A DNA stretch of 64,000 bases from Fragilaria crotonensis (lineage: Eukaryota > Bacillariophyta > Fragilariophyceae > Fragilariales > Fragilariaceae): positions 21,387-85,386 of the forward strand of contig JAKSYS010000219.1 in NCBI GenBank assembly GCA_022925895.1, read 5' to 3'. Below, piece after piece: positions 14 to 35,875 of the stretch. The number at the start of each line of letters is the position of its first letter. Position 1 is the first letter of the stretch. The notes beneath the pieces were generated by a model. The model searched no databases and had not been told where the DNA came from. It saw only the letters and a list, made by a program, of their open reading frames with translations. Both the position numbers and the translations under genes were made by a program.

Positions 14-281
14 TTGAACTCAGCGTACAGCCTGCTCGTGAACTATCGCACGCCTACAAACACGAGGCCCAGGAACAGCACCGGAAACGACAACGCTAAC
101 AGTCAGCGAACAAGTCAGACCTCCCCGGCGGCCGAAGAAAGCGCAATGACATTCGCCCAACAGAGCACTCCGGCGGCCGGAAGCCAGGGAGGCCATAACA
201 GCGCCCAGTCATCGACGGACCCCGACCGTAACCCCAGCTCCAAACTCCTCCGCCGTCTCAGTTAACACCGGCACTACGCTC
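14..281 (+). pseudogene. C-terminal part of copia Gag
   Basis: The frame opening at 14 reads SAYSLLVNYRTPTNTRPRN and then a Ser/Gln/Pro-rich low-complexity stretch, stopping at 265. The LLVNY stretch followed by a polar linker fits the end of a copia Gag just before the protease. The pol frame (frame 3) is also open upstream of its annotated start, back to at least base 180, so Gag and Pol were probably one continuous frame that has since shifted by one base. No zinc knuckle is visible inside the window. Most of Gag lies off the left edge. Product identity is inferred from position and from short sequence similarity only. Confidence 0.45.
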
Positions 282-3200
282 GTGCAGTACGCCGTAATGA
301 TGGCGCAGTCCAACGCCCAGTCCATTGACCCTAACTGGGTGCTCCTTGACTCCCAGTCCACCATCTCCGTGTTTCGGAACAAAAGCATGCTACACAACAT
401 TCGCCGGAGCCCACACGTCCTCCGAGCCATCACGAACGGGGGCTACCAGGATTCGCACATGATTGGGGATTTCCCGAACCTTGGCCCAGTGTGGTATAAT
501 AAGGACTCCATTGCGAACATCCTCTCACTATCGGAAGTTAGGCGAGTGTGCACGGTGACTATGGACACGTCCAAGGAGCCCGCCATGAATGTCCACCGCA
601 AGGACGGCACGATCATGAGTTTCATCGAACACCCCTCGGGTTTGTATGTGTACAATGGTAATGATGTGACTAGCGATGCTGTTAATGCGTACACGTTACT
701 CAATACTGTGGCCGAACACAAAAAGATGTTCTCCCAACGTCAAATCGCGGCCGCCGACGCCGCCCGTGCTTTGTACAGAAAAATCGGACGCCCCGACGAA
801 TCCGAATTCCAGTCCATCCTGCGCGGGAATTTCATCCGGAACTGCCCAGTCACACCGGATGACGCAAGCCGTGCGCTGCTCATCTACGGACCCGACGTCG
901 CGGTGTTGAAAGGCAAGATGACACGCTCCCGCGCATCCCCACGTGCGCCAACGTTCGAGGCCATCCCCATCCCGGCTCCAATCCTGGAGCATCAACGCAA
1001 CGTTACTTTGTGCGTGGATTTTTTCTTTGTCCAGGGTATTGGCTTTCTGCACACCATTTCACGTGGGATCGGTTTCCGCACGGTCGCACCTATCGTGGAC
1101 CGTTCACACAAGACTATTTTAAAAGAACTTTCCACCGTCATCAGCGTTTACCAGGCTCGGGGTCTCGTTGTTCGGGACATTCATGCCGATAACGAATTCG
1201 AGTGTATTCGCAATGACGTCCGACCAGTTGCCCTCAACATCATCCCTTCGGACAGTCACGTTGGAGAAGTAGAGCGCTCTATCCGCACTATCAAGGATCG
1301 TCTTCGATCGGCGGTCCACGGCCTTCCGTTTAAGCGTTATCCAAAACTAATGATTCGGCATCTGGTATCCGACGCCGTCCGGTGTCTCAACCAATTTCCT
1401 CGCAAGAACGGTGTCTCTGACACCATGAGTCCCGCTACCATTGTGGTCGGCACCGGCACGCCCGATTTCACAGCCATGCGCATTGAGTTTGGGGCATATG
1501 CACAAGTATTCGAGGAGTTTGATCCCACCAACACCCCGCGTGCGCGTTCGCTGGGCGCCATCGCCCTTACCCCCACGGGGAACGCTCAGGGGGACTACTA
1601 CTTTATGTCGCTTGCTACGGGTGCACGCATCTCGCGCCACCGTTGGACCGAACTTCCGATCCCCGACACCGCCATTGCCCGCGTCGAAGCCCTCGCCATC
1701 GCCGACGGTCAACCCCTCATTCAAGCCACCGGTTTTGTGGTTGAGTGGCGTCCTGACCATCCTATCGACGACGATGCGTACGATTTCGATTTCCACCCAT
1801 TCCCTGACCACGCGGCTGACGATAATCTTGACGTTGATTTTGACCCCATCGATGCCGACGAGCTCGCTGCCCTCGCCGCCCCTGCACACGATCCTGCCCC
1901 GCTACCGCCGGTCCCGGATCAAGGAGCGGTCATGACCGTCGATGTCAACGAGTATGTAGAAGAACCAGAGGAACCTGCCGACGACGCAGAAGATGAGGAC
2001 GACGCAGAAGACGAGGACTACACCGGAGACTACACCGATGATGCAGACGAGGACCAGGACCAGGACGATGACCCTGTCGAAGCATACGACCCGAACGAAG
2101 CGAACGATGGTGATGTCGTAGATCGCGAAATCAGGGGAGAACAACTTTTGGAACCCATCGAGGAGCAGCCTACGGTGCAAGAACAAGAGCCAGAACCAAT
2201 CGAAACACTCGAACCCCATGTAAATCAAGGAGCGGAAGAGATGGCTGAGGCCCAAGGTGCCATGGGCATTCCAAATCCCACGAGTCACCCGTACAACCTA
2301 CGTCATCGGGGCACATCATCGACCGATTTCCGAGTCGCCATCGACGAACCTCACAACAGCAAGTCCTACTTTCCCCCACGCCACCAGATGCATCAGGTCG
2401 GCCACATCAAGATTAGAGACCCTCACCGTTTTGCTTTCGATTACGTGTTCGCACACATGAGTGCCCTCCTCTTCACACAGATGAGTGCGAAAGCTGCGAT
2501 CAAGAAACACGGGAAAGCTGCCGAAGCCGCCCTCATGAGAGAATTTGGGCAACTGGAAGACTTGGACGTATACGAGCCAGTCCATGCAAGGACTCTAACA
2601 AAGGAACAACGAAAGGGTGCCCTGAGGGCCCTTCCTCTCGTCGCGGAAAAGCGCTGCGGGACGTTGAAAGGCAGGACTGTAGCGGACGGTCGACAACAGC
2701 GCAATTTATATGACAAGTCCGAAACGGCGTCCCCCACTGTCTCAAACGACGGTCTAACACTCACTATTGTTGAGGACGCCTATGAGGGCAGAGACGTTGG
2801 AACCGCGGATGTTGCAGGCGCCTACTTAAAGGCTTACATGAAAGATTTCGTGATCATGAAGTTCACTGGAGAGATGGTTGATATCCTTTGCAAGATGAAT
2901 CCCAAGTACATTGAATACGTGGTGTTGGAGGCGGGTGTACGAACTCTTTACGTGCGTCTCATAAAGGCCATCTATGGATGCGTGCAATCCGCACTTCTCT
3001 GGTATGAGCTTTTAGCGAGACCTTGCAGAAGATGGGTTTCGTGTTGAACCCGTACGATCGGTGCGTCGCGAACTGCGACATCAATGGTAAACAATGCACC
3101 ATAGCCTGGTACGTGGACGATACCAAGATATCGCACGTGGATCCGGAGGTTGTGACCATGATAATTAACAAATTGGAGGCTGCGTTTGGGAAAATGACTG

Positions 3201-4110
3201 TGACTAGAGGCTCATCGCACGTGTTCCTTGGGATGAATATTGAGTACAACAAATCCGAACGAACAGCTAAAATCACAATGAAAGACTATTTGAAAGAAGC
3301 CATCATCGAATCGGGCCTGGCGATCAACAAGACAGCATCCACACCAGCGAGCAAGGAGTTATTTGAGGTGGACGACGCTTCCCCTGCGTTACCGAAGCGG
3401 TACGGAGACGTTTTCACAGCGTCGTGGCTAAACTATTGTACGTCTCCATACGGGCACGAATGGACCTTCTTTTGTCCACCAGTTTCCTCACCACCAGAGT
3501 GTCACGAAGCACACGACAAGACATGGGCAAGTTGAAGAGACTATTGGAGTATATTAACGGTACTATCGATCTGGAGTACACTGTCGGCGCGGACGACCTG
3601 GGACGCATGCGCACCTGGGTTGACGCCGCGTACGCCGTGCATGCTGACATGCGTAGCCATACCGGAGGGGTCATTTCTTTCGGAAGGGGCGGCATAGCGT
3701 GCAAGTCGAGCAAACAAAAGCTTAACACCAAAAGTTCCACTGAAGCAGAGTTCGTGGGTGCGAGCGACTACCTCCCGAACACCATCTGGGTGAAAATGTT
3801 CATGGAAGCGCAAGGATATAAAATCAACGAAAACATTCTTGAGCAGGACAACGAGAGCGCCATAAAGCTGGAAAAGAACGGACGCATTTCTGCGGGGCCA
3901 AAATCCAGACACATTCACATTCGATACTTCTGGTTGAAGGATCGGCTGAAATCTGAGGACATCTCCGTCCGGCACTGTCCAACGTTGCAAATGCTGGCGG
4001 ATTTTTTTCACCAAGCCTCTACAAGGAAACCTTTTCCGACGTTTTCGCGACGTTGTACTTGGACGTTGCCACACCGACACCCTCGCCTCCGTCAACGATG
4101 GGTCGTTTGA
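282..4110 (+). pseudogene. copia Pol polyprotein: protease, integrase, RT, RNase H (frameshifted)
   Basis: The first frame (282-3047, 921 codons) starts with a protease motif LLDSQST near residue 22. Next come a GAG-pre-integrase-like stretch at about residues 150-215 and an integrase core with LCVDFFF, HADNEF and VGEVERS as the D, D and E regions. A very acidic linker covers about residues 490-690. The RT then begins, with TADVAGAYLKAYM and IKAIYGC. At about 3030 the coding moves to another frame (3023-3535), which holds the RT active site YVDD at 3110-3121. Near 3430 it moves again (3424-4110), giving RNase H with TKSSTEAEF and SRHIHIRYFWL. The start codon given is not ATG and the frame is open upstream. 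The enzyme would copy element RNA and insert the DNA copy, but the two internal shifts make it non-functional as read. Confidence 0.85.
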
Positions 4111-7834: not shown

Positions 7835-7930
7835 GCCATCTAAGGGTGCCAAAACCAAGTCGGCTCTTGGATATGAAAAACCAATTATCTTTGATATGAG
7901 AATTTTTTGTTCATAATTTTTACCTAAAAT
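7835..7930 (+). repeat. Left terminal inverted repeat of the composite transposon
   Basis: The first 20 bases match the complement of the right end without a mismatch, then the match continues with a gap through the GATATGAGAATTTTTT segment. It is immediately preceded by GTG. Confidence 0.7.
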
Positions 7931-7990
7931 ATAGGTAAAAACTTAGGACTAAAGAGCTTGTACATCATGTGTATGAAGCGGGTTTCCTCG

Positions 7991-8203
7991 TATTCCTGAA
8001 CTCTGAAATTTATGTTTCCTGAACTTTTTCATCTCTTGCATAGGAGCTCATACTTTGCATTCCTGAGCTCCAAAATTTCAATTCCTGAATTTCACTGACT
8101 CATTTTTACTAACACTCGGGTGGGATTCCTGAACTCTTGGACTCTAAATATATGAACTATACCACTTCTTCATTTGTGATCATGAATTTCAATTCCTGAA
8201 TTA
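7991..8203 (+). repeat. Left subterminal repeats (ATTCCTGAAC-type)
   Basis: Six copies of ATTCCTGAAC or close variants begin near 7992, 8015, 8059, 8081, 8125 and 8192. Clustered short subterminal repeats are typical transposase-binding sites in CACTA-group elements. The same motif recurs, mostly inverted, inside the right end. Confidence 0.65.
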
Positions 8204-8414
8204 GATATTCGAAAAGAAGAAGTTTGCTGTGTAGTGTGTATGAAGTAATCACCTCAGTAGTTCTGAGCTGACATTGTTCATATAATAGATGTTATTGTCG
8301 CTCATTTTAACTTTTGTTGGAGATTAGTTTTAATTGTGCCTATTCGTGTGGCTTTGATGAACCATTCTACTATTCATTACTAAGTGTCTGATCTATTCTA
8401 AACTGCCTCCACTT

Positions 8415-9640
8415 TCAATTCACTGTAGACAAGTTCAGGAGCAAGATGACTGGAGTAGTTATCATCCTCCTCATCAGAGTCCTCGTCAAATACATCAATG
8501 CACTTGTGTGGGCGTTTCTTACCCTTGTCATCAAATTGTTTCCTGACCCCCCCCGGCCAGACTCCTTTTTCCTTCTGGACAGAAACATTTTAAGTAGTTC
8601 CTGGTTGAATGTTGGGGTGGTTGATTTCTTTCTATCATTCTTGATGGCCATGTATAATTCATCGTATTTCCTCATTCCCACCTGTGACCAACCACAGCCT
8701 CCCCCCATTATCATGAGCACCCTTGTTCCTGGAGAATGTGTAAAGTGGTGGCTGCCGAACATGGTATTGCAAAGATTGGTCAGAAGTTAGGATGTGGTTT
8801 TTTCATTTCATTTAGTATCATAGTGTAACTTACGGGTAGGTTGTTGTTGTCCTCATCAGTCCATGTACCAATTCGCTGTTTCCAACAAGTGATAACAAAA
8901 CAAGTCAGTTTCTTGTTGTTTGTTCTGTGACAAACCATTCGGATAAACTTACCATTTTCTCTGTCTTAACTAATTCCGCGAACCACCTCTTCCCATAGTT
9001 GATCAGGCACAGCAAAATGAATGCTTCATCACTTATGGACAGGATTTTCTTGCTCCATACTTTTCTGTCAGTTGTTGCACAGTGGTTCTCCATGTTGATA
9101 GTGTTATTCCACTTGCTGCTGCCGACAATGCATGGGGCATAGGTGTCTATGATTTGGGCATAGTAGCAGATATTATCCCTCATCTTGAGGAGGTAACTGG
9201 TTTCTTCCTCGCTTCCACTGTATAGGCTGTGTTCATACGTTCCTAAATTGGAAGTGAATCCTCTGGATGCAAGGTGTTTGATGTTGAATGCAAGTGAGTG
9301 TGAGTATGCTCGGGCTTTGGCAAAGTACACTCACTTCAATTCCTCACCTTTGAATTTCGTTTGCATGTTTTTTATTGCATTGTTCGAAGATCAGTGTGTG
9401 TTTTACAACTATTCTCCGCATCCCAAGCCACCAGTTTTCGGTTCCTCGAATGTTTGTGTGCTTCATGATAAAGCCACAAAGTGTTTTCTCATCTTCACTG
9501 AAATGAGAATGATAGTCTTTTTGATAGAACTTCCAAATAGAGAACACGTGTTTTTTGATGCAAGTCTTGATCACACTGATTTGATTCTCTTCTGTATTTT
9601 CCGTCATGCTCATGTCCACTATGCTGCTTAGCCCTGGAAC
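8415..9640 (-). pseudogene. Transposon accessory protein of unknown function, multi-exon
   Basis: Three minus-strand open pieces (9344-9619, 8905-9330, 8415-8762) join through plausible short GT-AG introns. One donor follows ANEIQR near 9365, with an acceptor near 9280. A second donor follows KTEKM near 8952, with acceptor GGAAACAG near 8878. A third donor, GTAAGTTAC, lies near 8836, with acceptor GTTCGGCAG near 8750. Joined, the protein contains KVWSKKILSISDEAFILLCL and then GTWTDEDNNNLP, followed by GWSQVGMRKYDEL and FNQELLKMFL. I associate this order with an undescribed protein family found in diatom mobile elements. It has no catalytic motif I recognise. The 5' end is uncertain and the exon boundaries are inferred, so it may be intact rather than a pseudogene. 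Confidence 0.5.
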
Positions 9641-9866
9641 CGATGATGTTAGTTGGCTGTCACTTGATTTCCGACTTTAATAGTTGAAGGTAGGGATGGT
9701 GGATTTCCGTATGCATGCTTCTGTCCTAGTTTTGCATCCATTTTCCGTGGCACTTCTTCCTCCTCCTCCTCCTCGTTGTCACTTTGAATCAGATCATTGG
9801 GATCTGTGGTCACTGTTTCACGCCTCTTATGAAGTCTCTCCTTTGTTTCCTAGAGCTGGGCTTTAA

Positions 9867-10260
9867 GGCAGTCATGCCTGCTGCTGTTTGGTGTGCCATT
9901 GATGCCATGGTTGTATTTGTGGTGCTTCCTTGTTGTGTGAAAACTTTCCGATTGTGCGCCAAATTTTGAACACTGAAAATCCTGTTTGTGGGATAGTCTT
10001 TTTGCCACCATTTGAATTTCATACCAAGTACCGAGTTGGTATGTAGGTTCTACACATTCATGCAGGGTTTTCAAATTTTGAATTCATACCACACCCCTTC
10101 ATTCTTTACATACACCAAAATGTACCGAAAGTAAATGTACAATTTGAATGCACGCTTTCCGAACTTCTGTTTAGTGAATCTGTGTCCTGTCAATTTCAAC
10201 ACCTCATTTTCACTTCACTCGTCCTCTTCAAAACCCTTTCTTCAAAACCTTCTCTTCAAA
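9867..10260. other. Spacer between divergent transposon genes
   Basis: The interval between the minus-strand accessory gene and the plus-strand transposase start contains no convincing ORF. It contains CTTCAAAACC repeated three times near 10225-10260, just upstream of the transposase ATG, and probably holds promoter elements for both genes. Confidence 0.35.
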
Positions 10261-13215
10261 ATGTTGTCCTCGTCTGCTTCCTCAAAGGCACCCCTGCTCT
10301 TCTGTCAAAACCCCTTCTGCCTGAATTTCAACAAGAAACCCTTTTCCAATCAAGCAGCATATACACAGCATATTGATAGAAACATCGGGTGTTATAATTT
10401 CATTGTGAAGAAATCACACCATGCAGCAACACATGGGGCTTCTGCTTCACACCGTCGCCGTCTTCATGAGGATGGGAATATCACATGCACAAGTAACAAG
10501 AGGCCTGCCCTTTAAGGCGACATATGGTGAATGATCCCCACATGGATTTTGATGGCACAGACAACCTTCTGCAGTTTCCGGCTGGCAATGGTGTGGAAGT
10601 TGAAAGCACTTCTTGTGAGGACATCGAGGACTGCAACAAAAGTGATGATTTGTCCATGTTAAGTGATGACCCAAACATTCTTACCTGTACGAATTCTGCA
10701 CTTGATGAAGATGTGGAAGCCCCATCATTTCGTTCAAACTTCATGTATACTACCGATCAGAAGTGGACTGTTTCTCTCCTCAAAATCCTGGACCATGCCA
10801 ATGCACCCGACTACACTTTTGGTCAAGTCCTGGAGGGGCACGCTCTGCATCTGCTGATAATTATTCTTACAACCCAGTGGGTGGACTCTCGCGTGCCAAA
10901 AATGTTGATGCCCTGATCAACTCAGTTCGTAATGGGAAAAGACTGCTTCCCTTTGTACGAAGAGTGGATGTACATCATGGCTCTCCATCAGATGTGATTT
11001 GTTTTGACTTCGCTTCACAGTTGCTAAGTTTGCTGCAAAATCCAAGCATTATGACTGCAGAAAACCTTGCCATCGATATCAATGATCCCTGAAGCCCTAC
11101 CACAAATTGAAAGGCAGCAATGTTTTGGGTGAGGCACTGTCCGGGAGTGTCTATCGCAAGGCGTATGATCGATTAATCACAGATCCTCAGAAGCAATTGT
11201 TTGTTCCAATCATCCAATGGATTGATCGTACCTCTGTAACAGGGAATGATCGCTTTTCACTTAAACCCTACATGTTCACTCCAGCCATTTTTACAGAAAA
11301 ATTCAGAAGGAGTATCAAGGCATGGGGCTATCATGGCTTTCTCCCAAAGAGGAAGTCCTCATCAGCTCAGAAGCAGACACTTCGTATGGGCGATGCCATT
11401 CGTATCTATCATAAGGAGCTGGATGCTGTATTGGAGACCTTTCGAAATGTTCACCACAACTGTGTGGTGTTCATTTGCCAATTGGTCCAAAGGGTAGAAT
11501 CTGTGTCGACATTGTCACATGTGTGTTGTTCATCATTCAAGATATGCAAGAAGGAGATATGCTGTGTGGTCGGTATGGTGTTCACACCAGTGGAATCCAA
11601 CGCCCTCATCGGTGCTGTGATGTCAATTATGATGATCTGAAGAACTGTGATGTCCATTGCAAATACCTGGTAGCCTCGGATATGGGTTTCATTGCCAGGA
11701 GTAATGATGATGATCTCAGGAAACGATGGTCTCAACATAAACTTGAAAATGCATTTGAACACATTGCCTTTGCTGACCCTGAGCGTGGAATCTTTGGGGC
11801 CACTCCTGTGGAGACAATGCATGCATTTCGGAAAGGTGTCATCGAAAGTAACAAAACTTATATTGGACAGTCTTCCAGCATCCAAGAAGGCTGCCTTTGA
11901 TGACCTTGCAATAGCATTTCACAAGTCTCATCGCCAAACCTACCGAAAGGAGTATCCATCAACAGATTTCAGCAATGGGGTAACAAATTTGACAAAGATA
12001 ACTGCATCAGAACGCGTTGGCCTCGTTTTTTTTGTTTGTCATCCTCTTCCAATATGAAGCAGGATGGCAAATGATCCAAACATGTCTTGAGAAAAGAACA
12101 ACTAAGAAGGTTCCTGAGGTCCTTGAAGTACTTGAATCTCTCCTTTGTTTCGATGCTTGGCTAAACCAGAGTCATTACTGGGAGACTACAAATCCAGCAC
12201 ATGTTGCAAATGAAATGAAGAAACATCAGGATTCCATTCGCAATTTCATGGATATGTGCAAACAGTCCATTCCCTTGAAAGTTGAGGGAAAGGAGGATGA
12301 CAAGAAAAAGGGTAAGAAAAAGGGGAACCATCATAAGGAAGGAAGGACAGAAAAGCAATGCCGAGGATGCATGGAAGTTTCCGAAATTCCATGAGTTGTT
12401 ACACATTGTGGATGATATGTCTCGGTTTGGCTCTCCAGTGAACTTTTGTGCACAGCGTCCAGAATCACTTCTAATTCCTGCTGCAAAGCACCCTGGGAGA
12501 CGGGCACAGAAGCGAATTGAGGGTTCTGCATATGAACTTCAGGCAGCCCAACGTTTAATGTACTCCTTCATGATCGACACCATACACACGCGCATATGGG
12601 AGCAACCAGATGGTGATGCTGATGTACCCGACAGCCACCATGATGATGAAACAACAAGGAATGGAATCTTTCAGAGCACCGGACAAGCAACATTTGGCTG
12701 TGTTTATCGATTCAAATCGAGTAAACAAATTCAGTACAAAATTGAATGGGACACCAGAACTCACCGTGATTTACTTGCTCTTCCCCTGGAGTTGATTGAG
12801 TTTCTTTTTGATTCCTTTAAGGAATCCGACTCAATAACATTTTGTACTGAATACAAACGAGATGTCCACACCTTTCGATGTCATCCCTGCTATCAGTCCG
12901 ATGGTCCCATACATGACTGGATGATAATTGACTTTGGGGAACATGGGAAGTTTCCCCTGTCGTTTGGCTCTTGTAGTTGTTGTTGACTCACCCGCGGATC
13001 CGGACGAGAGATACCAACTGGTTGTTCAATCAACAACAGAAGAAATTAAAGAACACGAGTCAACACTGTTGAGGGAGTGGAAGTGGTCTCCAACATACCA
13101 CCTTGTCTCTGGAAACACTGTCGTGGCCCCTTGTTTTGTTATATCCATCTCACACAACAGTTCCACAGTTCTTGAGACAAAACCATATACAGAGTGGGCA
13201 TCCAAATTCGCTTAG
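10261..13215 (+). pseudogene. CACTA/Plavaka-like transposase, decayed
   Basis: Translation from ATG 10261 begins with a Cys/His zinc-finger-like segment (CLNFNKKPFSNQAAYTQHI, then GC), as in Plavaka-type transposases. After a stop at 10513-10515, homology-like coding passes through all three frames. The pieces are 10524-10860, then frame 2 to 11092, frame 1 from 11107 (VPIIQWIDRTSVTGNDRFSL), frame 3 from about 11470 (ADPERGIFGATPVETMHAFR), frame 1, frame 2 (ESLLCFDAWLNQSHYW), frame 3 from about 12380 (KFHELLHIVDDMSRFGSPVN, GRRAQKRIEGSAYELQAAQR) and finally frame 1 to 13215. Single-base losses explain several shifts, for example at 10850 and 11090. The first Asp of a DDE-type core is plausibly in IQWID. 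Family assignment rests on motif resemblance and on the ends of the element. The number of shifts shows that this copy is dead. Confidence 0.65.
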
Positions 13216-13319
13216 CTAGCTTGTTGCATCAAAGTACCTAAAGGAAACATGTTGCCATCGTCTGTCCGAGCCCTCACAATCTTTGGACCATCACCATCGG
13301 CTCGCTTTCTTGTTTGAAT

Positions 13320-16300
13320 CTACCCAAAGAGTAAAACTTGCCTTCCTGTTGATGTCTGGGCCATCATAAAAAGAGTTGCCTTCCGAAAGCTCACAAACTC
13401 ATTCTTCACAGTTGAGGTTGAGCAGCAATAATCCAAGGCCTCCTTGCAGAGAGGAATTGCAACCACTTCATTTGCATCATACACATACCCACTGTGAATG
13501 GTAACTGCATGTGAACCATTTCCATCGGATTCATTGAGCACAGCCAATACCATTGTGTCCTTCATTTGTTCTTGAAGGAGTTGCCAATCAAACATGTGTG
13601 GTCTCTTCAGAACTTGTCGGGTGATCCATGTAGGCAGCTGAGTTTCAGCAAACTGTCCCACCTTTCGAATGGCATCAACAGTACCTCCTCTTAGGTGACT
13701 TTCACCAAAATGGTTAATGGATTTGGCAGCATTATCAAATCCAATTGCATATAAAGCACTGGCCAATGACTTTGAAACACAAAGATCTTCACCTTCGGAT
13801 TGTACAAAGTGGACCTGGGGTGCTTCAGGAACCTGCAGCTTGGGATATTCATGCAAATGTGATTCTTTGAAATCGCCCACTGGTATGTCAACAAATCCAC
13901 ACCTCATACGCTTGACCTCCTCCAAGAATCCTGTCTTAAATTGTTTCACAAAGTCTTCATCAGTTCGAATGGGCTGTGTTTCTCCATGAAAGATGACCTC
14001 CCAGTAACCAGGGGCCTGTATCTGCTTCATATGTTTACCCCCTGGTGAGTCACTGTTGCTCCTTAAGGACCTTTTCGACTGAGGATCAAACACCCATTGT
14101 GTCTGTGGGGGAACGTATCGCAGCTTATGTACCTTTTAGTATGAATGAGGATGGTTTCCCCTTCAGGAACAGGTACAAATCCATCCGTGTTTCCAACGTT
14201 AATGACATGTTGGATTACCCCTTTGCATAATCGGCATCCTTGATCCAGTCTTTGGAAACAGCAATTTTTTCTTCCTTCTTTTCCAACTTTCCTTCTTTTG
14301 TCTTAACATTGTAAACCAAAAGTGCAACAAAGGTATCTTCACGTGGGTTGTACTTGAGGCCATGCACCATGGCCTCAGTGCCAAATGTCCATTCCAATTC
14401 AAATGCCCTTTTGAATTTCTTCCTTTCCTTCTTCATAAACTTTATTTCTTTCGTGTACTGCTCTCTGTAATCATCCTTTGTCTTTTTCTTCTTACATCCA
14501 TCAATTTTTTTGCATCTCGGCCCGCTTCTTTTCCACATTCTTCATGTGATCTTTGGTAGAGCTCCAACCCCAGTACAAAAATCTGTCCTCCACGAATTTG
14601 TTCATTGCTGCTTCATCCCTAAGAAGCACTGGTCGATCTTCACCGTCATCTCCTTTCTTTCGCCACTTTTTTCTAAATTTCTCAACTTCATTGTCTGATA
14701 CCAATGTTTTGTACCTACTTTCTCCGAAAGGTAATTTCGGGCATTCATCAGGTACATGAATGTCTCCATAACCATACGTACGAGGAGGCCCACCTTTCCA
14801 TACCCTGCTTGCTCGGGGAAGCTTAGCAGGATCATTCCACCAGGCTTCGTTGAGATCAATATCTTCTTCCTGTTGTTCAGGTCCATCAGCAGATCCAGAT
14901 GGTTTGAAATCGGCAACATCCTCCTCTGATGGCAAACTCCGTTCATTGGCATTTGGCAAAACATCCTCCCTGGAAGAAACATCCTCCAACGTAACACTGT
15001 CGTCCTCTGTGGCATTGGATGGTACTGGCACCCAGGGCCACGTGAAAGTCTGAAGTTCCAACTTCAGACTTCCGTAACAGGGATCCATCAAATGATTTGA
15101 ATTCTGACGTTTTGGGACTGTGACGTGTTGAAATTCTGCAATGCGATCAAACAGCAAAAACCACTGTGCTTTCATCGCATGCAAGTAGGAAATGGAAGCC
15201 GAATCATCCCTTTTAAACAGTTTTGTGAATATTCCCTGTGGAAAACAGCAAATGTGCTCCTTCGATTTCACATCAGTTGACATCTGGATTTCCATGCGAT
15301 CGCGTCTAAACATTTCGTTGTACGCTGCAACTCCATCTTGAGTCCCAATGATATCTCGGAGAATTATTGCAATTGCAGCTATAATCCCAATCCCACAGCT
15401 ATGGCCATCTTCTTGCAGGGGAAGAACATCATTATCCAACACCCTCAATGCAGGGAATGTATTGGTGCCCTTCATTTGCCCAAAAAAAGGTTCGTCCGAA
15501 CGGACTGAGCCACTTCATCTTGTTTGGAGTGCTGCTATCATTTGCACTGTTTTTCCTTTGCTCCTGGTAACTGAAGGCAAGGTTCAGGAACCAGACAACA
15601 CCGACATTGTTTGGAATTTTTCTCGTGCCGGAGGGATGAAGACTGCAATAGCGAAAAAAACATGTCCGGAGGCATGATACATCATCCGTGGCAGCCACAA
15701 CGTCTCCAGCATTGAAAACAAATGTTGCCCCCCAATGATCGTTGCTGAGATTCGTAGGAAACACAATCAACCTTTTCTGCAGAAGCCCTGGATAGAACAA
15801 CAGGACTTCCTTCACAACACGATTCATTTGGTCATCATACTTCTGGTAAAGTTCTTCCTTAGAACTTCCATACCTTTTTTTCACAAGGGCAAGACATTCT
15901 GCATGATCGGCTCCATTGGCTACCATCAAGTCGTTTTCGTACTTCTTTGCAGATAGATGACGTTGAAGACGCAAAGCAACCTTGAATTACCTGCATGTCG
16001 TCAAAGACAGGATTGCAACTGATGTGTGATACCTGCCATCCCTCATGAGGAGTGAAGTCATCATTTGCAGCTCACGGGTGGCCATCCAAGTTTTCCCACC
16101 ACTTTTGCTATGATCAAGCCTTTCCTGTGATCCCATTTCTCCAAAACCACGCAACTGGTCAGGCAGAACCAGGTCACCAAATGGTGGTGGAAGAAGGTTG
16201 TTCAAATAGTCCAGACCGGTAAATGCCTCTTCCAGATCTGCATTTGTCAGCAATGCTCCACTTGCAACATCATCTTGAGATCGATTGTTGATGAAGGGTA

Positions 16301-17527
16301 TTGGCACCATACAAATGTTTTTCTGGTGTTGCTACCATCATTCCGTGCACTGACTGTCTCATTGTTGCTCTGCACAATCTCCAAAACATCACTGCTCACG
16401 AGGGAAGGGGAACCACCACTCGATTTTGCGACTATATTGATCTTGCTTTCTTCCTCTGACTCAACAACAGCACGCGGGGAACCATCATTTCTTGTTGCAC
16501 TGATCACATCACTGTTGCTTTCAACAACCTCGACAGCAGCACTGTTAGCAGCACTGTTCAAAAGGGAACCGGAAGAAAGTTTCATCAGAGGGATAATGCA
16601 GTGCTCCTCAGACTCTGGTACAATCCATGCAAATCCACCTGTGGTCTCGTCCATTAAGGTGTCGGCAATTGTCTTGGGAAGAAACTCAATGCCAGTTGTG
16701 TCTTGGAGATTGATTTGACGGAACCCACAGGCTTGGTAGAATTCCTTTGGCTCGTCATGGGGACACTGCAAGTAGATGTCCACACCATGTAGGCTCTCCT
16801 GACATTGTGACAGCTCACGGTGAGACAATAATAAAAAAGTTGAATGCTTGATGAGCATTACTAACATCAGACGTCCAAACCCTTGCCGTCTCCAGGATGT
16901 AAGACCGGATGGCTTCCGTGATTCAGATTCTGCAATCAACAGCCAAAGCACCAACGACGCACCAACTTCATCTCCAATTCCACTTCGAAATGTAATGCAT
17001 GCAATAACAACAGAGTCTTGGCACCCTATGACAGATTTCTTGAAGGGGTCATCTTCTTTCCAAGAGGACGTCCCACAATCATTATTGATGGATCAGAATT
17101 CACAGCACGATCGATAGAGCTCAAATCAGCTTCTGTAGAATTGAATGATGTGCTGTAGAATTGCCTTGCAGCTTCTGTCGCCCACTTAAACCTTGTCGCC
17201 TCAGCTTTGTTTGTTTGGACACGTGTGGGGTACAACGTAACTACCTTGAATTGCCAAATTTCATTGGAGTCCTCTTTCGTTCTGAGTCATAATCTTGGAC
17301 AACGGGAGGTCTTGAAACCAAGAGCTGAACATGTGTAGTGGAAACTCTGAAACAGCACGAGCGGGTGATGATAAAAAGACTCGAACTTGCGATCTGAATT
17401 GTTTATTGACCTTTGTTCCTGGAGGTGGTGTGAATTCATCCATACCATCACGGAACAGGTACGCCTTATCCATAGGGACTCCTCCTTGCTGACGAGAGAC
17501 AGGGGACAGTGATGGAACCTCTGCCAT
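13320..17527 (-). pseudogene. GNAT acetyltransferase / Ulp1-like / cysteine-peptidase-like cargo protein, frameshifted
   Basis: Read on the minus strand from ATG 17527 (MAEVPSLSPV), coding runs through several frames to the stop at 13320. The order is as follows. An N-terminal region of unknown function (17527-17030). A GNAT-like domain (about 16990-16600) with a strand VVIACITFRSG, the acetyl-CoA-binding-type loop RRQGFGRLML and EFYQACGFRQI. A linker. A Ulp1/C48-like domain with NLSNDHWGATFVFN (15760-15720 area) and LPLQEDGHSCGIG (15435-15395 area), supplying His, Gln and Cys candidates. A Lys-rich segment with KKKKTKDDYREQ. A C-terminal domain (14093-13320) with EDLCVSKSLASAL, GSHAVTIHSGYVYDAN and AIPLCKEALDYC, resembling a Cys-His-Asn papain-like fold. 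At least five frame changes and an in-frame stop near 15988 break it. It may originally have been one gene or two. Confidence 0.65.
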
Positions 17528-19440
17528 TTTGTTGGTTGAAATATGAATAATCCTCCAACTGGTGTGCGTGTATACAACTCTTGAGCATGCGAACAGACAA
17601 CTGACAAAAAGAACCAATACCGGTAGATCAATCTGGTTTGATTCACTCAAATCAATGAGAATCTCTCAGATGACCGAATATTGGATTCTAGATGACAGAT
17701 TGCCTTACAAACTCAATCGAAGCACGCACACAAGACGAAGTACTTATTCCCTCAATTAACAACAAAATGAGAAGCACAACACTTGTCGACAAGGATCCTA
17801 ATTATGAAAGGAGAAGAAGAGGAGGATGTGAGATTGAAAGCTGGAAAATACAATCATGTGCAATGACACAACGTCAACAAGAAAGACTGGAGTACAGTAC
17901 CAGCACAATGTTGTACGGAAGCCTCCAAGGTACTGTCGTGGTGCGAACTCGTCCCAGTACTTGACAGTACCATGAGTACAGTACGTAGACAATGGTACAG
18001 GCACAACAGGAGTACCTCAACAAATCAATCAGTTGCTCACAATGATGGAAACGACGATTCAACACAACATTCTTGTGTTGATAGGACAAAACAATCAAAA
18101 ACTCACGAACAAGAACGACAGTTAAGTGCCCTTGTTAGTGGAAAGGAAGAAGAAGCAAAGGGCAAAGGGGACAAGCACAGAATGAAACATTCAATGCGGT
18201 GTTGGGCATGACACCAAGTTGTGACATCGACAACCGTACAGCAGGCACAAGGTAGTATTGTAATAAACCGTAGGCCCACCAAGGTACTGTCATACTCCCA
18301 GTACTTGATAGCAACATGAGTACAGTCGTAGACAACAGTACATGCACAAGGTAGTGTTGTACCGTAGCCTCAAGGTACTGTCGTATTCCCAGTACTTGGC
18401 AGTACCATAAGTACGGTACGTAGACCACGGTACAGGCGCGACGTAGTGTATTACCGTAGCCTCCAAGGTACTGTCGTACTCCCAGTACTTGGCAGCACCC
18501 TAAGTACGGTAGGTAGACGACTGTACAGGCGCGACGTAGTGTATCACCGTAACCTCAAGGTACTGTCGTGCGAACTCGTCCCAGTACTTGACTGCACCCT
18601 GAGCACCGTACGTAGACAACGGTACTGGCACAACGGGAGTACCTCAAAACTCATTCGACCATCACCATGATGGAAACATTCAATCAACACAACAATCAAC
18701 GAAAAAAGCACATTTGCAGTCTTACCACTTAAGACTGCAATGTCTTGTGGGTGGGAAAGGACGAAGAAGGAGCGAAGATGCCAAATAATGGAGCATCAAT
18801 GTGGTGTCGGGCATGACACCAAGTGGTGGAGTGCTCAACGAACGAAGTGTGAGATGTGACACTTCCCGCAAAAAAAATCACGTACGATTCTACTAAAGAC
18901 AATACTGTGGCTGAAAAAGAATTAATTCCTTGTAGAAATATACAGCATGCACTGGTATTGGTGCCAAAGAATTAATCAGTACATACTATCGCCTACAATT
19001 CTACGGTTTGTTGTTGAAAACACAAGATCACGTAGTACGTAGCATAGTGTCATAGGAGTACTCGCATGATACAATACTGTACTAAAAATTATACGCTACC
19101 ACCATACCGTAGTACACAAAACACAGCGCTATAGTAATGAAAGTACCGTACACAGTACCACACTACCATACACACAGACCACGCCGTAGCTACCATACTG
19201 TACACCACCGCACCATACTAAACGTACTGTAGCAGGCACCGAACACCATGCACCATGCACCAGACACGCCCATAGCTACTTGTACAACGTACAATGTACA
19301 GCGTATAACCAACAACGAACCATTGCGCTAGTACGACGGTAGTATCAGCTGACAGCACTGTAAAAACCGCTGTATACTGTACACTGTACGGCACAACCAA
19401 TAGTCCACCCACGATACACCATGCTACTCCAGTATTTCGT
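17528..19440. other. Repeat-rich right arm of the transposon, no gene
   Basis: The region upstream of the cargo gene is dominated by GTAC-containing degenerate repeats, including the 92-bp tandem array, and has no credible ORF. From about 18900 to 19440 it is nearly free of longer ORFs and is rich in GTAC, TACCGTAC and ACAC-type short motifs. Confidence 0.5.
18281..18655. repeat. Tandem repeat, about 92-bp unit, four copies
   Basis: Units begin with AAGGTACTGTC at 18281, 18372, 18465 and 18557, a spacing of 91-93 bp. Each contains CCCAGTACTTG and a later GTAGAC...GGTAC segment. A related, more distant copy starts at 17927. The array lies between the cargo gene and the right terminus of the transposon. 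Confidence 0.8.
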
Positions 19441-19495
19441 ACAAAACACGTACAGTACTCGGTGTTTTATGTGCATCGAAATAATGAAGAAAAAG

Positions 19496-19640
19496 CTCAG
19501 GAATAATACTGCAGTAGTTCAGGAGCAAAAAAATTCTTCATAAAAATGAGGAAACAGCAAATGTCGGAATCCTGAACTAAATAAATAAACCAGAAAAAAC
19601 TTCAGGAATCCTGAACTAAATATGGGAATCCTGAAATTTT
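19496..19640 (-). repeat. Right subterminal repeats
   Basis: TTCAGGA/TCCTGAA motifs occur near 19497, 19517, 19566, 19601 and 19625. The copy at 19601 is a palindrome, TTCAGGAATCCTGAA. They mirror the left subterminal cluster. Confidence 0.65.
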
Positions 19641-19705
19641 TCCAATAAATATGATAAAAATTCTTGTATCAACTATGGTACTTAGTTTTGGCACCCTTAG
19701 ATGGC
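19610..19705 (-). repeat. Right terminal inverted repeat of the composite transposon
   Basis: The complement of 19686-19705 equals the left terminus GCCATCTAAGGGTGCCAAAA. It is followed by GTG at 19706-19708. Confidence 0.7.
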
Positions 19706-19863: not shown

Positions 19864-20370
19864 ATGAAAGTGGATTTGTCATCTGTCCATGTGAGCATTG
19901 ACGAGTACGATGTCGAAAATGTTGGAACACATGTGACTTAGTGCAGCAACGGTGAGGAAGATGATGTTGATGTCGATGTCGATGTCAATGTCAATGTCAA
20001 TGTCAATGTCAATGTCAATGTCAATGTCAATGTCGATGTCAATGTCGATGTCAATGTCGATGTCAATGTCGATGTCGATGTTGATGTCGATGTTGATGTC
20101 GATGTCGATGTCAATGTCGATGTCAATGTCGATGTCAATGTCGATGTCAATGTCGATGTCAATGTCGATGTCAATGTCAATGTCAATGTCAATGTCGATG
20201 TCAATGTCGATGTCAATGTCAATGTCAATGTCGATGTCAATGTCAATGTCAATGTCAATGTCAATGTCAATGTCGATGTCGATGAGTATGGTGAAGACAA
20301 TGACACTGGCTTAGATGATGATGGCAAAGAGCGATACCACGAAGCTTGTTACAACTCTGTCATTGATTGA
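19864..20370 (+). pseudogene. Acidic Asp/Asn-Val repeat ORF with one internal stop
   Basis: From ATG 19864 a frame reads MKVDLSSVHVSIDEYDVENV, meets TAG at 19939, then continues open. It passes through a long run of alternating Asp/Asn and Val encoded by a hexanucleotide repeat, to an acidic tail (DEYGEDNDTGLDDDGKERYH) and a stop at 20368. The non-repeat flanks are protein-like and share the frame with the repeat, which suggests a former gene of about 168 codons. No function can be assigned. It may equally be a chance frame, because every frame through this repeat is open. Confidence 0.35.
19963..20286. repeat. Hexanucleotide microsatellite (GATGTC/AATGTC)n
   Basis: About 54 tandem copies of a 6-bp unit alternating between GATGTC and AATGTC, with rare GATGTT. 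The unit length keeps all reading frames open on both strands, giving (Met-Ser)n or (Asp/Asn-Val)n on the plus strand and Ser/Leu-Thr runs on the minus strand. Confidence 0.95.
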
Positions 20371-29145: not shown

Positions 29146-30042
29146 TGATAGACTTCCAGTATCGCCCTACATATTTTTACATCTATCCCGATCCCTAACT
29201 GACGCCCGTGTGCACAGTAAAACGTTACATCCGTGCTCCAGTAACCAGTGCGACACTGCACGACTGGAATCAAAACTCTCGTCGATTCAAATCATGTTCA
29301 TCTCATCCCATGAGCATGAACACTCATTTTCAAACGAGACTCAACGCCTCGTATACGGACGACCACACCGCGACACGAAACGACGTCTCCGCGAAACGAG
29401 GAGTGTTCCTTATTGTTCCAAAGGAACACTCCCTTCATTCAGACCTCTCATCTGTTGCCCCTCCTCACTCTTCTCACAATTGTCGAAATAATTCATTTTT
29501 AGTGCCACTTACCTTTTCTGCACATACTGTGAATATCTGCACAATCATGAATGAAATTGACCATGACGAATTTTTACCGCCGGTCGTCAAATTGTCAACC
29601 TCACCATACTGTACATATTTCAGTAGTCAGTACGACGGTACTCACTATTACGACAGCACACAACACGGCAATCAGTACAGCAGTACTTTTTGCACATCAC
29701 TTCCTCTGCCCGGCCATAGTCCGTGCACGTCTGAGTCTATCGTTACCGTACATAACGATAAACTATTAGACAGTGCCCACTATGACCAAAGCGATATTAT
29801 TACTAGTCAGTCCCTCGCACATTTATGTAGCGATAGACCGACAGATAGTATACGTATCGTTGTCTGTAGCGGTAGACAGCATTGTATTGCTGTACCGTTT
29901 ATAGACACACTAAGCAGTAGTCAGTGTCGTACTAGACACTTACCTACTGGGGGCGTACCCCGTAACGGTTACGTCCTGGTTCTTAACCCGAACCTTACGC
30001 CGACCTGCGCGTCGACAGGTTCCGTTAACCCGAACCATATCA
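29146..30042 (+). repeat. 5' LTR
   Basis: 897 bp, TG...CA ended. Compared by eye with the 3' copy it shows seven differences: three short indels in the first 70 bp and four substitutions. It contains a perfect 10-bp hairpin, GGAGTGTTCC at 29400-29409 and GGAACACTCC at 29423-29432. Long open frames pass through it but are chance extensions. Confidence 0.92.
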
Positions 30043-30060
30043 TGGTTGCTCGCCAGGCTT
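30043..30060 (+). other. Candidate primer-binding site
   Basis: TGGTTGCTCGCCAGGCTT follows the LTR without a gap. TGG is the complement of the universal tRNA CCA end. The specific tRNA cannot be named from this window. Confidence 0.45.
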
Positions 30061-30305
30061 CTATCCTGGCCGGTCGCCGGGTTCCCTCCCCGGAAACTCC
30101 GAGCCTATTCAATTTAAATTTGGTGCCTAGCACCGATTTAAATTGCTCTAACCTTTGTTCTTTTCCCTTCCAGCTCAACTTTCATACCAGCAGTACATGT
30201 TCCTACTGCCTGAGAATTGAAATTCTCATTCCTTGTGCTCACTTTTTTTTGCAAAACTTGTCTAACCCAACTCACCCTTCATCCTTCAACTTTGCAACTC
30301 TCACC

Positions 30306-31184
30306 ATGGTCAACCCAGCACTAACCCATTTGCCTCCAACTGAGGCCAACTGCCCACCCTCCCATTGTGTCAAGCCTACGAAACACATGGTGAACTATGT
30401 CGCCGCCGACGGCGATTTTGCAGCTCCTTTTGATGCAGATGCACTCAAAAATGCTGCCCTACCTTTCAAGAAGCATTCCTTTTCCTATGTTGCAACTACT
30501 AACACTTCTTCCATTGCTGAATCTAACACCTACAGGCCCAAGAAGAGCCCCAAGCAAGCTCCAGGCCATTTTCAGCGCACCGCAACGGCCCTGACTCCAG
30601 AGCAAGAGTCCGCCGTCATCTCGCGTTTTCTTGAAACCATCGATCAAGAACGCCTCCAAGACACCGACACCAACAACAGAGTTAACTACGCCTGCGAACT
30701 CTCCTACGAAGCAGGATCTACCGATATGGGTCGCTCCCATTCTCTTTCCATCAAACCAGGCGCCATCAACGACAACGCAGCCGCCAAATTCCAAGACAAT
30801 CAAGACAACAACGCGCGCAATACCTTCGCTTCCACCATCATCCCGCGCCAAGAAGACCTCCAACTTGCCTCCTACGAAAGGCCTATCAAGAACCAACGTG
30901 TCAGATTCAATTTTAACGTCGAAACCATCAAGATCAAGAACAACAATGAAGTCGCGAAATGCGACTCTTTCAAGATTCCGGCGACGAACGCCGAAGACCT
31001 CCACTACGACAAGAGGGGTATCATCCAAACCGCCTTGAAAAGGCTCTCCAATGCATGTCTCAATCAAAATTCCGACGAATACTCGAGGAGAAATCGTCCG
31101 AACAGTGGACTGCATCAAAGAATTAGCGCAGAACGTACGTTTTACTACGCCGTGCAAGCGCGAAGCTCGCAAGAGCGATTCTGA
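30306..31184 (+). CDS. Retrotransposon ORF1, upstream Gag region
   Basis: The first ATG after the 5' LTR (CACCATGG context) opens a frame of 292 codons starting MVNPALTHLPPTEANCPPSH. It is polar, rich in Asn, Ser, Thr and Asp, and has no known domain, as is common for N-terminal Gag regions of plant-type and diatom elements. From about 31051 coding potential continues in another frame that overlaps it, so a frameshift, natural or mutational, probably links the two. The frame is also open upstream into the LTR, but that part has LTR composition and is not counted. Confidence 0.5.
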   Translation: MVNPALTHLPPTEANCPPSHCVKPTKHMVNYVAADGDFAAPFDADALKNAALPFKKHSFSYVATTNTSSIAESNTYRPKKSPKQAPGHFQRTATALTPEQESAVISRFLETIDQERLQDTDTNNRVNYACELSYEAGSTDMGRSHSLSIKPGAINDNAAAKFQDNQDNNARNTFASTIIPRQEDLQLASYERPIKNQRVRFNFNVETIKIKNNNEVAKCDSFKIPATNAEDLHYDKRGIIQTALKRLSNACLNQNSDEYSRRNRPNSGLHQRISAERTFYYAVQARSSQERF

Positions 31185-34239: not shown

Positions 34240-35132
34240 TGATAGACTTCCAGTATCGCCCTACATATTTTACATCTATCGATCCTAACTGTCGCCCGTG
34301 TGCACAGTAAAACGTTACATCCGTGCTCCAGTAACCAGTGCGACACTGCACGACTGGAATCAAAACTCTCGTCGATTCAAATCATGTTCATCTCATCCCA
34401 TGAGCATGAACACTCATTTTCAAACGAGACTCAACGCCTCGTATACGGACGACCACACCGCGACACGAAACGACGTCTCCGAGAAACGAGGAGTGTTCCT
34501 CATTGTTCCAAAGGAACACTCCCTTCATTCAGACCTCTCATCTGTTGCACCTCCTCACTCTTCTCACAATTGTCGAAATAATTCATTTTTAGTGCCACTT
34601 ACCTTTTCTGCACATACTGTGAATATCTGCACAATCATGAATGAAATTGACCATGACGAATTTTTACCGCCGGTCGTCAAATTGTCAACCTCACCATACT
34701 GTACATATTTCAGTAGTCAGTACGACGGTACTCACTATTACGACAGCACACAACACGGCAATCAGTACAGCAGTACTTTTTGCACATCACTTCCTCTGCC
34801 CGGCCATAGTCCGTGCACGTCTGAGTCTATCGTTACCGTACATAACGATAAACTATTAGACAGTGCCCACTATGACCAAAGCGATATTATTACTAGTCAG
34901 TCCCTCGCACATTTATGTAGCGATAGACCGACAGATAGTATACGTATCGTTGTCTGTAGCGGTAGACAGCATTGTATTGCTGTACCGTTTATAGACACAC
35001 TAAGCAGTAGTCAGTGTCGTACTAGACACTTACCTACTGGGGGCGTACCCCGTAACGGTTACGTCCTGGTTCTTAACCCGAACCTTACGCCGACCTGCGC
35101 GTCGACAGGTTCCGTTAACCCGAACCATATCA
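34240..35132 (+). repeat. 3' LTR
   Basis: 893 bp, same ends as the 5' LTR, followed by the TGTAC target duplication at 35133-35137. Confidence 0.92.
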
Positions 35133-35159
35133 TGTACTGGGGCCTGATCCTGATGAGCA

Positions 35160-35875
35160 AACCAACATCTAGCTAGCTAGTACTGGAGTAGTGAAATCAA
35201 ACACTACCGGTACAGTACCATGAAAAACTACCACGACTCGCACGAATGAGATTCCTCGTCGGAGGCCTCGTAGGAAATGTACTACCAGGTACCTACGTTG
35301 TAATCCAGTACACTCTCTACTTTCCACTATGTACTCCCTCGTATTAGCTATTAGCTAGAGTCGTGAGTAGATACATGTATGCATACGTCAACAGCGGGCT
35401 GCCTGGCGCCTTGCGCATGCTGGGGAGCGAGGCGAATCTTGAGCAATTGGTTCGGCGAGAGCCGAGAGCGAGACGTACTATGTAGTACTTGTACCAGGTA
35501 CAGTAGTACCTCTACTCTCCAGTACGTATGTATGCGTGTTGGAGTGCAACGTGCATCTCAGTATTCAATGCAGCGAGAACAGGAGGGAATTGAGAACACC
35601 GGACCGAAGAACAAAGAGGAATACGGAATACGTGATACAGATGTGCGTACGTGATCCTCCGTACATCATATGCAGTATACCACGATATCCTAGTACTACT
35701 ATTGTACTGCCACTGAACGCTGTACTCTAACGTGAGCAGTGGACTGTTCTTATTCAGATGTCATCAATCCCACACACGAATCTCAACTCCCAACTCCCAA
35801 CTCCCAACTCCCAACACATGAGCTTTCCCACAATTTCCATTACAACTCCCTACTCCGGAAACAACAGCAGTAAAC
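35160..35875. promoter_or_regulatory. GTAC-rich upstream region of the TLDc gene with a 7-bp tandem repeat
   Basis: Many GTAC/AGTACT/GGTACC motifs occur between 35175 and 35720. At about 35786-35815 AACTCCC is repeated four to five times, ending 60 bp before the ATG. Before the retrotransposon inserted, this region would have been the shared upstream region of UTP13 and the TLDc gene. No ORF here is convincing. Confidence 0.4.

Follow-up and report, generated by a model that had tools for sequence, protein, structure and literature searches.

Does a large gene that lies between the ends of a transposon belong to it, or is it cargo? The question is raised by a 64,000-nucleotide stretch of Fragilaria crotonensis DNA (contig JAKSYS010000219.1, positions 21,387 to 85,386; the whole stretch is called the window below). 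An 11.9-kb unit within it was initially described, from the letters alone, as a composite transposon with acetyltransferase and protease cargo; we refer to this description as the original prediction. The large gene of this unit has regions that resemble a GNAT acetyltransferase, an Ulp1 protease and a papain-like peptidase. The explanation we favour, with a probability of roughly 0.7, is that the unit is an autonomous transposon of the Plavaka-like (CMCT) type which moves by cut and paste and was active recently, and that the large gene is an intrinsic part of it which would act on silencing or on the transposase by way of protein tags.

The element and its copies in the genome

The element is a single DNA transposon of 11,867 bp (Table 1). 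Its terminal inverted repeats (TIRs) are 24 bp each with one mismatch between them, and its termini are CATCT..AGATG. The dinucleotide found directly outside both TIRs is the target site duplication (TSD), and the span given at the outset, 7835-19705, is therefore correct when the TSD is included. The subterminal repeats that had been noticed were confirmed by counting: on both strands together, TCCTGAA occurs five times in the first 600 bp of the element and five times in the last 300 bp. Between these end zones it occurs three times in 10,967 bp, with one further copy straddling the 600-bp border, and outside the element seven times in 52,133 bp of the window. The term composite has to be given up, because there is no second element at either end and no flanking copies of another element are present. 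All three predicted genes were found inside, the transposase on the plus strand and the large and accessory genes on the minus strand.

Table 1. Coordinates of the element's features in the window (bp, positions of the whole stretch).
Feature	Position	Strand	Basis
Complete element, without TSDs	7837-19703
Target site duplication, left copy (GC)	7835-7836		2-bp comparison of copy flanks
Left TIR, CATCTAAGGGTGCCAAAACCAAGT	7837-7860	+	End comparison and genome matches
Left subterminal repeats, 5 copies of TTCCTGAA	7994-8200		Motif count
Accessory gene, pieces 8415-8786, 8905-9330 and 9344-9676, ends approximate	8415-9676	-	Open frames, relatives
Plavaka-like transposase, frame broken in window copy, ends approximate	10150-12986	+	Pfam match, open frames of copies
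Large accessory gene, about 1,400 codons, ends estimated from other copies	13210-17527	-	Overlapping open frames of copies
Papain-like (C39-like) region	13323-14135	-	Conserved C, H, D
Ulp1-like region, HW ... P-x-Q-x2-G-x2-C-G	15164-16085	-	Motif
GNAT-like region, R-x2-G-x-G motif (RRQGFG)	16616-17332	-	Pfam match below cut-off, and motif
93-bp tandem repeats, 3.7 copies, in untranslated right part	18280-18629		Other copies have them too
Right subterminal repeats, 5 copies of TCCTGAA on either strand	19518-19635		Motif count
Right TIR	19680-19703	-	End comparison and genome matches
Target site duplication, right copy (GC)	19704-19705		2-bp comparison of copy flanks

The ends were searched for in the whole assembly (62.1 Mb, 881 contigs), which initially gave 66 candidate places for the left end and 57 for the right. 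Scored matches to the first 201 bp of the element number at least 40, and so do those to its last 226 bp, the window's own being counted in both cases. The 18-bp end, allowing up to three mismatches, is found at 79 + 94 places in the genome, against 18 + 28 for a reversed control. Together with the TIRs and the GC duplication, these matches uphold the prediction of one unit with matching inverted ends.

Twenty-four copies were compared, comprising the window copy and 23 fetched from the same genome. Fifteen of the 24, the window's included, have both ends, the transposase, the accessory gene and the large gene with its three regions, so that the supposed cargo does lie between such ends elsewhere in the genome and the idea of one unit is not refuted. 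Among the others, C703 is without about half of the Ulp1-like region, C286 stops before the GNAT-like region (its right end was not seen within the 14.6 kb fetched), and C713 has lost the transposase almost entirely. Larger losses are found in C108, C390, C569, C769, C405 and the outer element of C836.

An exact 2-bp duplication is present in 21 of the 23 copies with both flanks, and a 3-bp duplication in none of them. The commonest duplicated dinucleotides are TA, AT and TG; in C69 and C55 the 2-bp sequences do not match. These 23 include the nested element of C836 described below, and leave out C769 and C286. Copies C95a and C95b share their flanks on both sides, and C569 and C769 on the left side, so that neither pair represents two independent insertions. 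The 23 and the 24 both include C95a, C95b and C569, and C769 is included in the 24 alone; none of the four is among the 46 diverged loci discussed in the next section.

The family has been mobilised recently, as follows from the very small number of substitutions among the closest copies. Substitutions relative to the column majority were counted over the large-gene region (4.1-4.7 kb per copy) in an alignment of 16 copies. The window copy, which itself contributes to that majority, has none. Among the 15 other aligned copies, 11 have 1-9 substitutions and three have 11, 19 and 38; the count for C548 is 272. In the closest copies, columns with insertions or deletions (indels) outnumber substitutions, many of them lying in homopolymers, and the frames break at places that differ from copy to copy. 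Assembly indels, superimposed on very recent copying, are the probable cause of the split frames, including those of the window copy. Introns are unlikely to be their main cause, since the break sites vary by copy and indels exceed substitutions in the closest copies.

Shorter elements with the same ends were also observed. In C836 (L039 922-7660) there is a nested 6.7-kb element with both ends, a TA duplication, pieces of the accessory gene and only the start of the transposase, and exact TIR pairs 6.7-6.9 kb apart are found on at least 13 further contigs (C34, C42, C154, C186, C402, C482, C511, C549, C563, C599, C658, C694 and C702). These observations indicate that a short non-autonomous family is probably common. 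In C408 the left end is 99% identical to that of the window family, yet the adjoining gene matches are 41-73% identical and the gene block is in the other orientation; this could mean either that families have exchanged ends or that a fragment lies nearby.

Genes of the element and their diverged relatives

The large gene lies on the opposite strand to the transposase, the two genes being tail to tail. It forms a single frame, which was obtained from overlapping real open frames in several copies, none of them joined artificially. The frames of C647 (516 codons) and C69 (832) have 354 residues in common at 98% identity, and those of C69 and C157 (616 codons) have 182 in common at 92%; the final C258 frame, which terminates at a stop, overlaps the one in C157.

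The evidence that this gene belongs to the transposon comes from its diverged relatives. A set of 46 loci was assembled from the same genome, defined by a papain-like match of at most 60% identity (28-60%, best stretch). One match was counted per region and locus, and coordinates were compiled by hand from the match lists. A transposase match is present at 37 of the 46, downstream and on the opposite strand, with 2.1-2.8 kb between match starts. An Ulp1-like match is found upstream of the papain-like match and on the same strand at 35 loci, and a GNAT-like match upstream of the Ulp1-like one at 29. The transposase and all three regions occur together at 27 loci, the accessory gene also at 27, and everything at 23. 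Among all the matches at the 46 loci there is no violation of order or strand. No transposase match was found at nine loci (C314, C253, C664, C106b, C150, C317, C687, C312 and C55b), some of which may be truncated or too diverged.

At C449 (1,414 codons), C872 (1,145), C874 (1,132) and C2 (1,077) the GNAT-like and Ulp1-like matches are in frames of equal reported length, and in the long shared frames these two regions are 26-39% identical to those of the window family. The finding of the same gene beside transposases at diverged loci, with order and strand of its three regions unchanged, strongly supports the conclusion that the large gene belongs to the transposon and is no passenger; on this comparison the GNAT-like/Ulp1-like/papain-like protein appears as an old transposon gene. 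The notion of cargo added to one unit is not supported, as collinearity of the gene with the transposase extends to diverged loci in this genome. In the diverged relatives the accessory gene is on the opposite side of the transposase/large-gene block as compared with the window family, which implies an inversion or relocation of either the block or the accessory gene.

The CACTA/Plavaka-like nature of the transposase was predicted correctly. The match to Pfam PF18759 scores 35.9 bits for the window piece, and 40.2 and 40.7 bits for copies L033 and L011, the cut-off being 26.3. The frame is open over 765 codons in C361 (L033) and 644 in C647 (L011). The motifs C(2)C and H(3-4)H were sought between what we take to be the second catalytic D and the last catalytic E of the L033 transposase: C..C is absent from this transposase as a whole, and H.{3,4}H from the stretch in question, which has HRCC instead.

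The accessory gene is at the left end of the element and its transcription is directed away from the transposase. As predicted, it has no known family: a Pfam search gave none. Its middle piece has relatives 38-47% identical at the diverged loci. The ratio of non-synonymous to synonymous substitution rates (dN/dS), calculated against the C548 copy with codons near gaps dropped, is 0.17 for the transposase and likewise 0.17 for the accessory middle piece, and for three overlapping parts of the large gene it is 0.64, 0.50 and 0.34. In addition, C1, C30, C33 and C85 carry relatives of the accessory gene (32-34% identity) about 7.3-7.8 kb from a second group of Plavaka transposases, with no large-gene match there. 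Perhaps the accessory gene is a second gene common to these transposons in general.

Proposed function of the large protein

The presence of one frame with three regions, as had been proposed, holds; the enzyme names attached to these regions are not proven from the sequence comparisons made here. In the Ulp1-like region, residues in the catalytic order of Ulp1 are present, with HW at positions 118-119 and PLQEDGHSCG at 222-231 of L027:4240-5160, and the pattern HW-x(40,150)-P-x-Q-x2-G-x2-C-G was found in none of 50,000 shuffles and none of 29 background frames (a looser form in 246 of the 50,000 and again in none of the 29). The Asp expected between HW and Cys-Gly is not obvious. In the papain-like region, C83, H173 and D184 are invariant in 3/3 rows and 5/5 rows, including C259 at 47-50% identity, and are the putative catalytic residues. 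The acetyl-CoA loop of GNAT proteins has the form R/Q-x2-G-x-G/A, which RRQGFG fits, and this is a weak indication, given that RxxGxG occurs in 7,513 of 50,000 shuffles and 5 of 29 background frames. A distant relative, C312, scores 28.5 bits against the PF00583 cut-off of 20.7 and so passes, and just misses that of PF13508 (26.6 against 27); this GNAT match lies about 3.3 kb upstream of the locus's own papain-like match, on the same strand.

On the basis of these features, we hypothesise that the inverted ends and the TTCCTGAA repeats are bound by the transposase, perhaps together with the accessory protein; in CACTA elements, accessory proteins have binding sites placed like the subterminal repeats of this element. 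The transposase would excise the element and reinsert it with a 2-bp stagger, as the ends and duplications imply. The large protein may then work on proteins at the element's DNA or in the transposition complex, the Ulp1-like and papain-like regions stripping SUMO or ubiquitin-like tags and the GNAT-like region attaching acetyl groups. The outcome would be that the element escapes silencing or that the transposase stays active; anti-silencing and direct help in transposition seem to us about equally likely.

A number of observations weigh against this explanation, and some of them concern the names. The profile searches originally suggested for the large gene did not bear them out in the window family: the best GNAT score there is 16.4 bits (PF13508), below the Pfam cut-off of 27, the C48 profile PF02902 matches neither the window family nor the diverged loci, and no Pfam or NCBIfam C39/papain profile matches the papain-like region. 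A thin-profile comparison with SENP1/2 gave 16.4, within the range of 60 shuffles (maximum 21.2, mean 14.2), and searches of the large-gene regions against PDB sequences gave no match up to E 1, nor up to E 10. The remainder concern the gene itself. The dN/dS of 0.64 in the GNAT-bearing part indicates weak selection, and the large gene is evolving faster than the transposase. Three loci outside the 46, C869, C874 and C589, have GNAT-like and Ulp1-like matches with no papain-like match, and as C869 and C874 also have a transposase match, the papain-like part may be dispensable. As for the diverged families, their gene sets may move as single units, a reading based on gene order. Separately, 74 pattern matches on viral contigs included no relative.

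Comparison with known systems helps to place the element. It shares with fungal Plavaka the PF18759 transposase, 2-bp TSDs, CATC..GATG termini and an extra gene besides the transposase (PMC12730594). PlavakaB of fungi is described as having 2-3 bp duplications, CATCA..TGATG ends and in some families a TET/JBP extra gene (PMC12730594). Unlike PlavakaB, the element here has CATCT..AGATG, with four of the five bases the same, and its extra gene is GNAT/Ulp1/papain-like, no search for TET/JBP having been made in it. None of the words Ulp1, protease and acetyltransferase appears in the main text of PMC12730594. The 5'-CA..TG-3' ends typical of most of the wider CMCT clade are present in the window element. 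With a different base at the fifth terminal position, and neither C(2)C nor H(3-4)H found, it is best classed as Plavaka-like, and not as a member of PlavakaB.

CACTA elements of grapevine and rice with a ULP domain (five grapevine families) resemble it in having a transposase of a related clade and an Ulp1-type region aboard; the portion of that paper available mentions ULP alone, and other domains were not searched for in it (PMC2528002). Ulp1 or OTU cysteine proteases are also carried by Ginger1 (PMC2836005) and by oomycete Cryptons (PMC3212892), with different arrangements. In Ginger1 the OTU or Ulp1 is a C-terminal domain of the transposase, the recombinase is another one and acetyltransferase is not mentioned in the available portion (PMC2836005), and in the Cryptons a C48 peptidase stands beside a tyrosine recombinase (PMC3212892).

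A functional parallel is offered by Vandal MULEs of Arabidopsis, where VANC genes bearing Ulp1 (KIU) relieve the silencing of related elements, the function of the Ulp1 part being called unknown by the authors (PMC13317346). The sites bound by VANC are motifs in untranslated sequence, often arranged as tandem repeats, and the protein relieves silencing (PMC5735166). The window element likewise encodes an Ulp1-like region (compare PMC13317346) and has an untranslated tandem array, the 93-bp repeats of Table 1 (compare PMC5735166). It differs in its transposase superfamily. The word acetyltransferase does not occur in the available text of PMC13317346. A bolder version of our hypothesis, tentative and in our view rather doubtful, is that this Plavaka-like lineage encodes a chromatin-editing polypeptide, guided by the element's repeats, which would remove SUMO or ubiquitin-like tags and acetylate histones or silencing factors, and thus be an anti-silencing system with an origin unrelated to VANC and to the TET/JBP of transposons.

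Other explanations of the large gene have to be considered. It is quite possible, if not what we would expect, that the gene serves transposition and has no silencing role: the proteases would mature or free the transposase, or clear repair or replication proteins marked with SUMO or ubiquitin from the cut site, and the acetyltransferase would tune the transposase. This has the same anatomy as our preferred explanation and differs from it in function alone. It would suit the tail-to-tail position beside the transposase at 37 of the 46 diverged loci, and the authors of the Ginger study propose that Ulp1/OTU proteases act in transposition, for example via DNA repair factors (PMC2836005). Copies C108, C390 and C405, which have lost much or all of the large gene, keep intact 2-bp duplications; this counts against a role in transposition to a very small degree, being nearly neutral, because proteins from full copies may have served, or the gene may have been lost after insertion.

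A more radical proposal is that the names are wrong, the motifs having arisen by chance in a transposon protein with a structural or DNA-binding role. The absence of any significant profile match for the three regions in the window family would be explained by it, and we nevertheless consider it unlikely, given that the strict Ulp1 motif is absent from every shuffle and background frame, that the GNAT match of C312 exceeds the PF00583 cut-off in the expected position and strand, and that the three papain-like residues are kept in C259. Capture of a host gene or of its fragments by one transposon family, as a passenger or by transduplication, is very improbable. Plant DNA transposons do pick up pieces of genes, Ulp1 among them (PMC13317346 and PMC2528002), and other Pfam GNAT and C48 matches are present elsewhere in this genome. 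Yet none of the 44 C48 matches found falls at a diverged locus, the gene, its order and its strand are constant across these loci, the GNAT-like and Ulp1-like regions in the long shared frames are as little as 26-39% identical to the window family, and dN/dS is below 1.

An intrinsic large gene thus remains our preferred explanation. That transposons can encode a protease, or a DNA demethylase, has been described before. A search of the literature for transposons with both an acetyltransferase and Ulp1, which left out most subscription papers and Repbase, found nothing relevant; what is new relative to the literature searched is that a Plavaka-like lineage has, as a standing gene, a conserved protein in which one acetyltransferase-like and two protease-like regions are fused. 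Provided that the folds are borne out, one could ask directly whether silencing is countered by transposons via protein tags besides DNA methylation, the family having many near-identical copies within a single small genome.

Surroundings of the element

To the left of the element, at 150-4110, there are long frames which by eye resemble pieces of a copia-type polyprotein. Further to the right, two long frames at 29199-31184 and 34289-35176 have nearly identical starts (LTPVCTVKRYIRAPVT... and LSPVCTVKRYIRAPVT...), and apparently represent a repeated element with a gag-like frame between. Of the neighbouring genes in the window that were compared with the PDB, one had no match and the other matched many 6-phosphogluconate dehydrogenases. 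To the right of the element, at 19963-20284, is an array of about 54 copies of the hexamer GATGTC.

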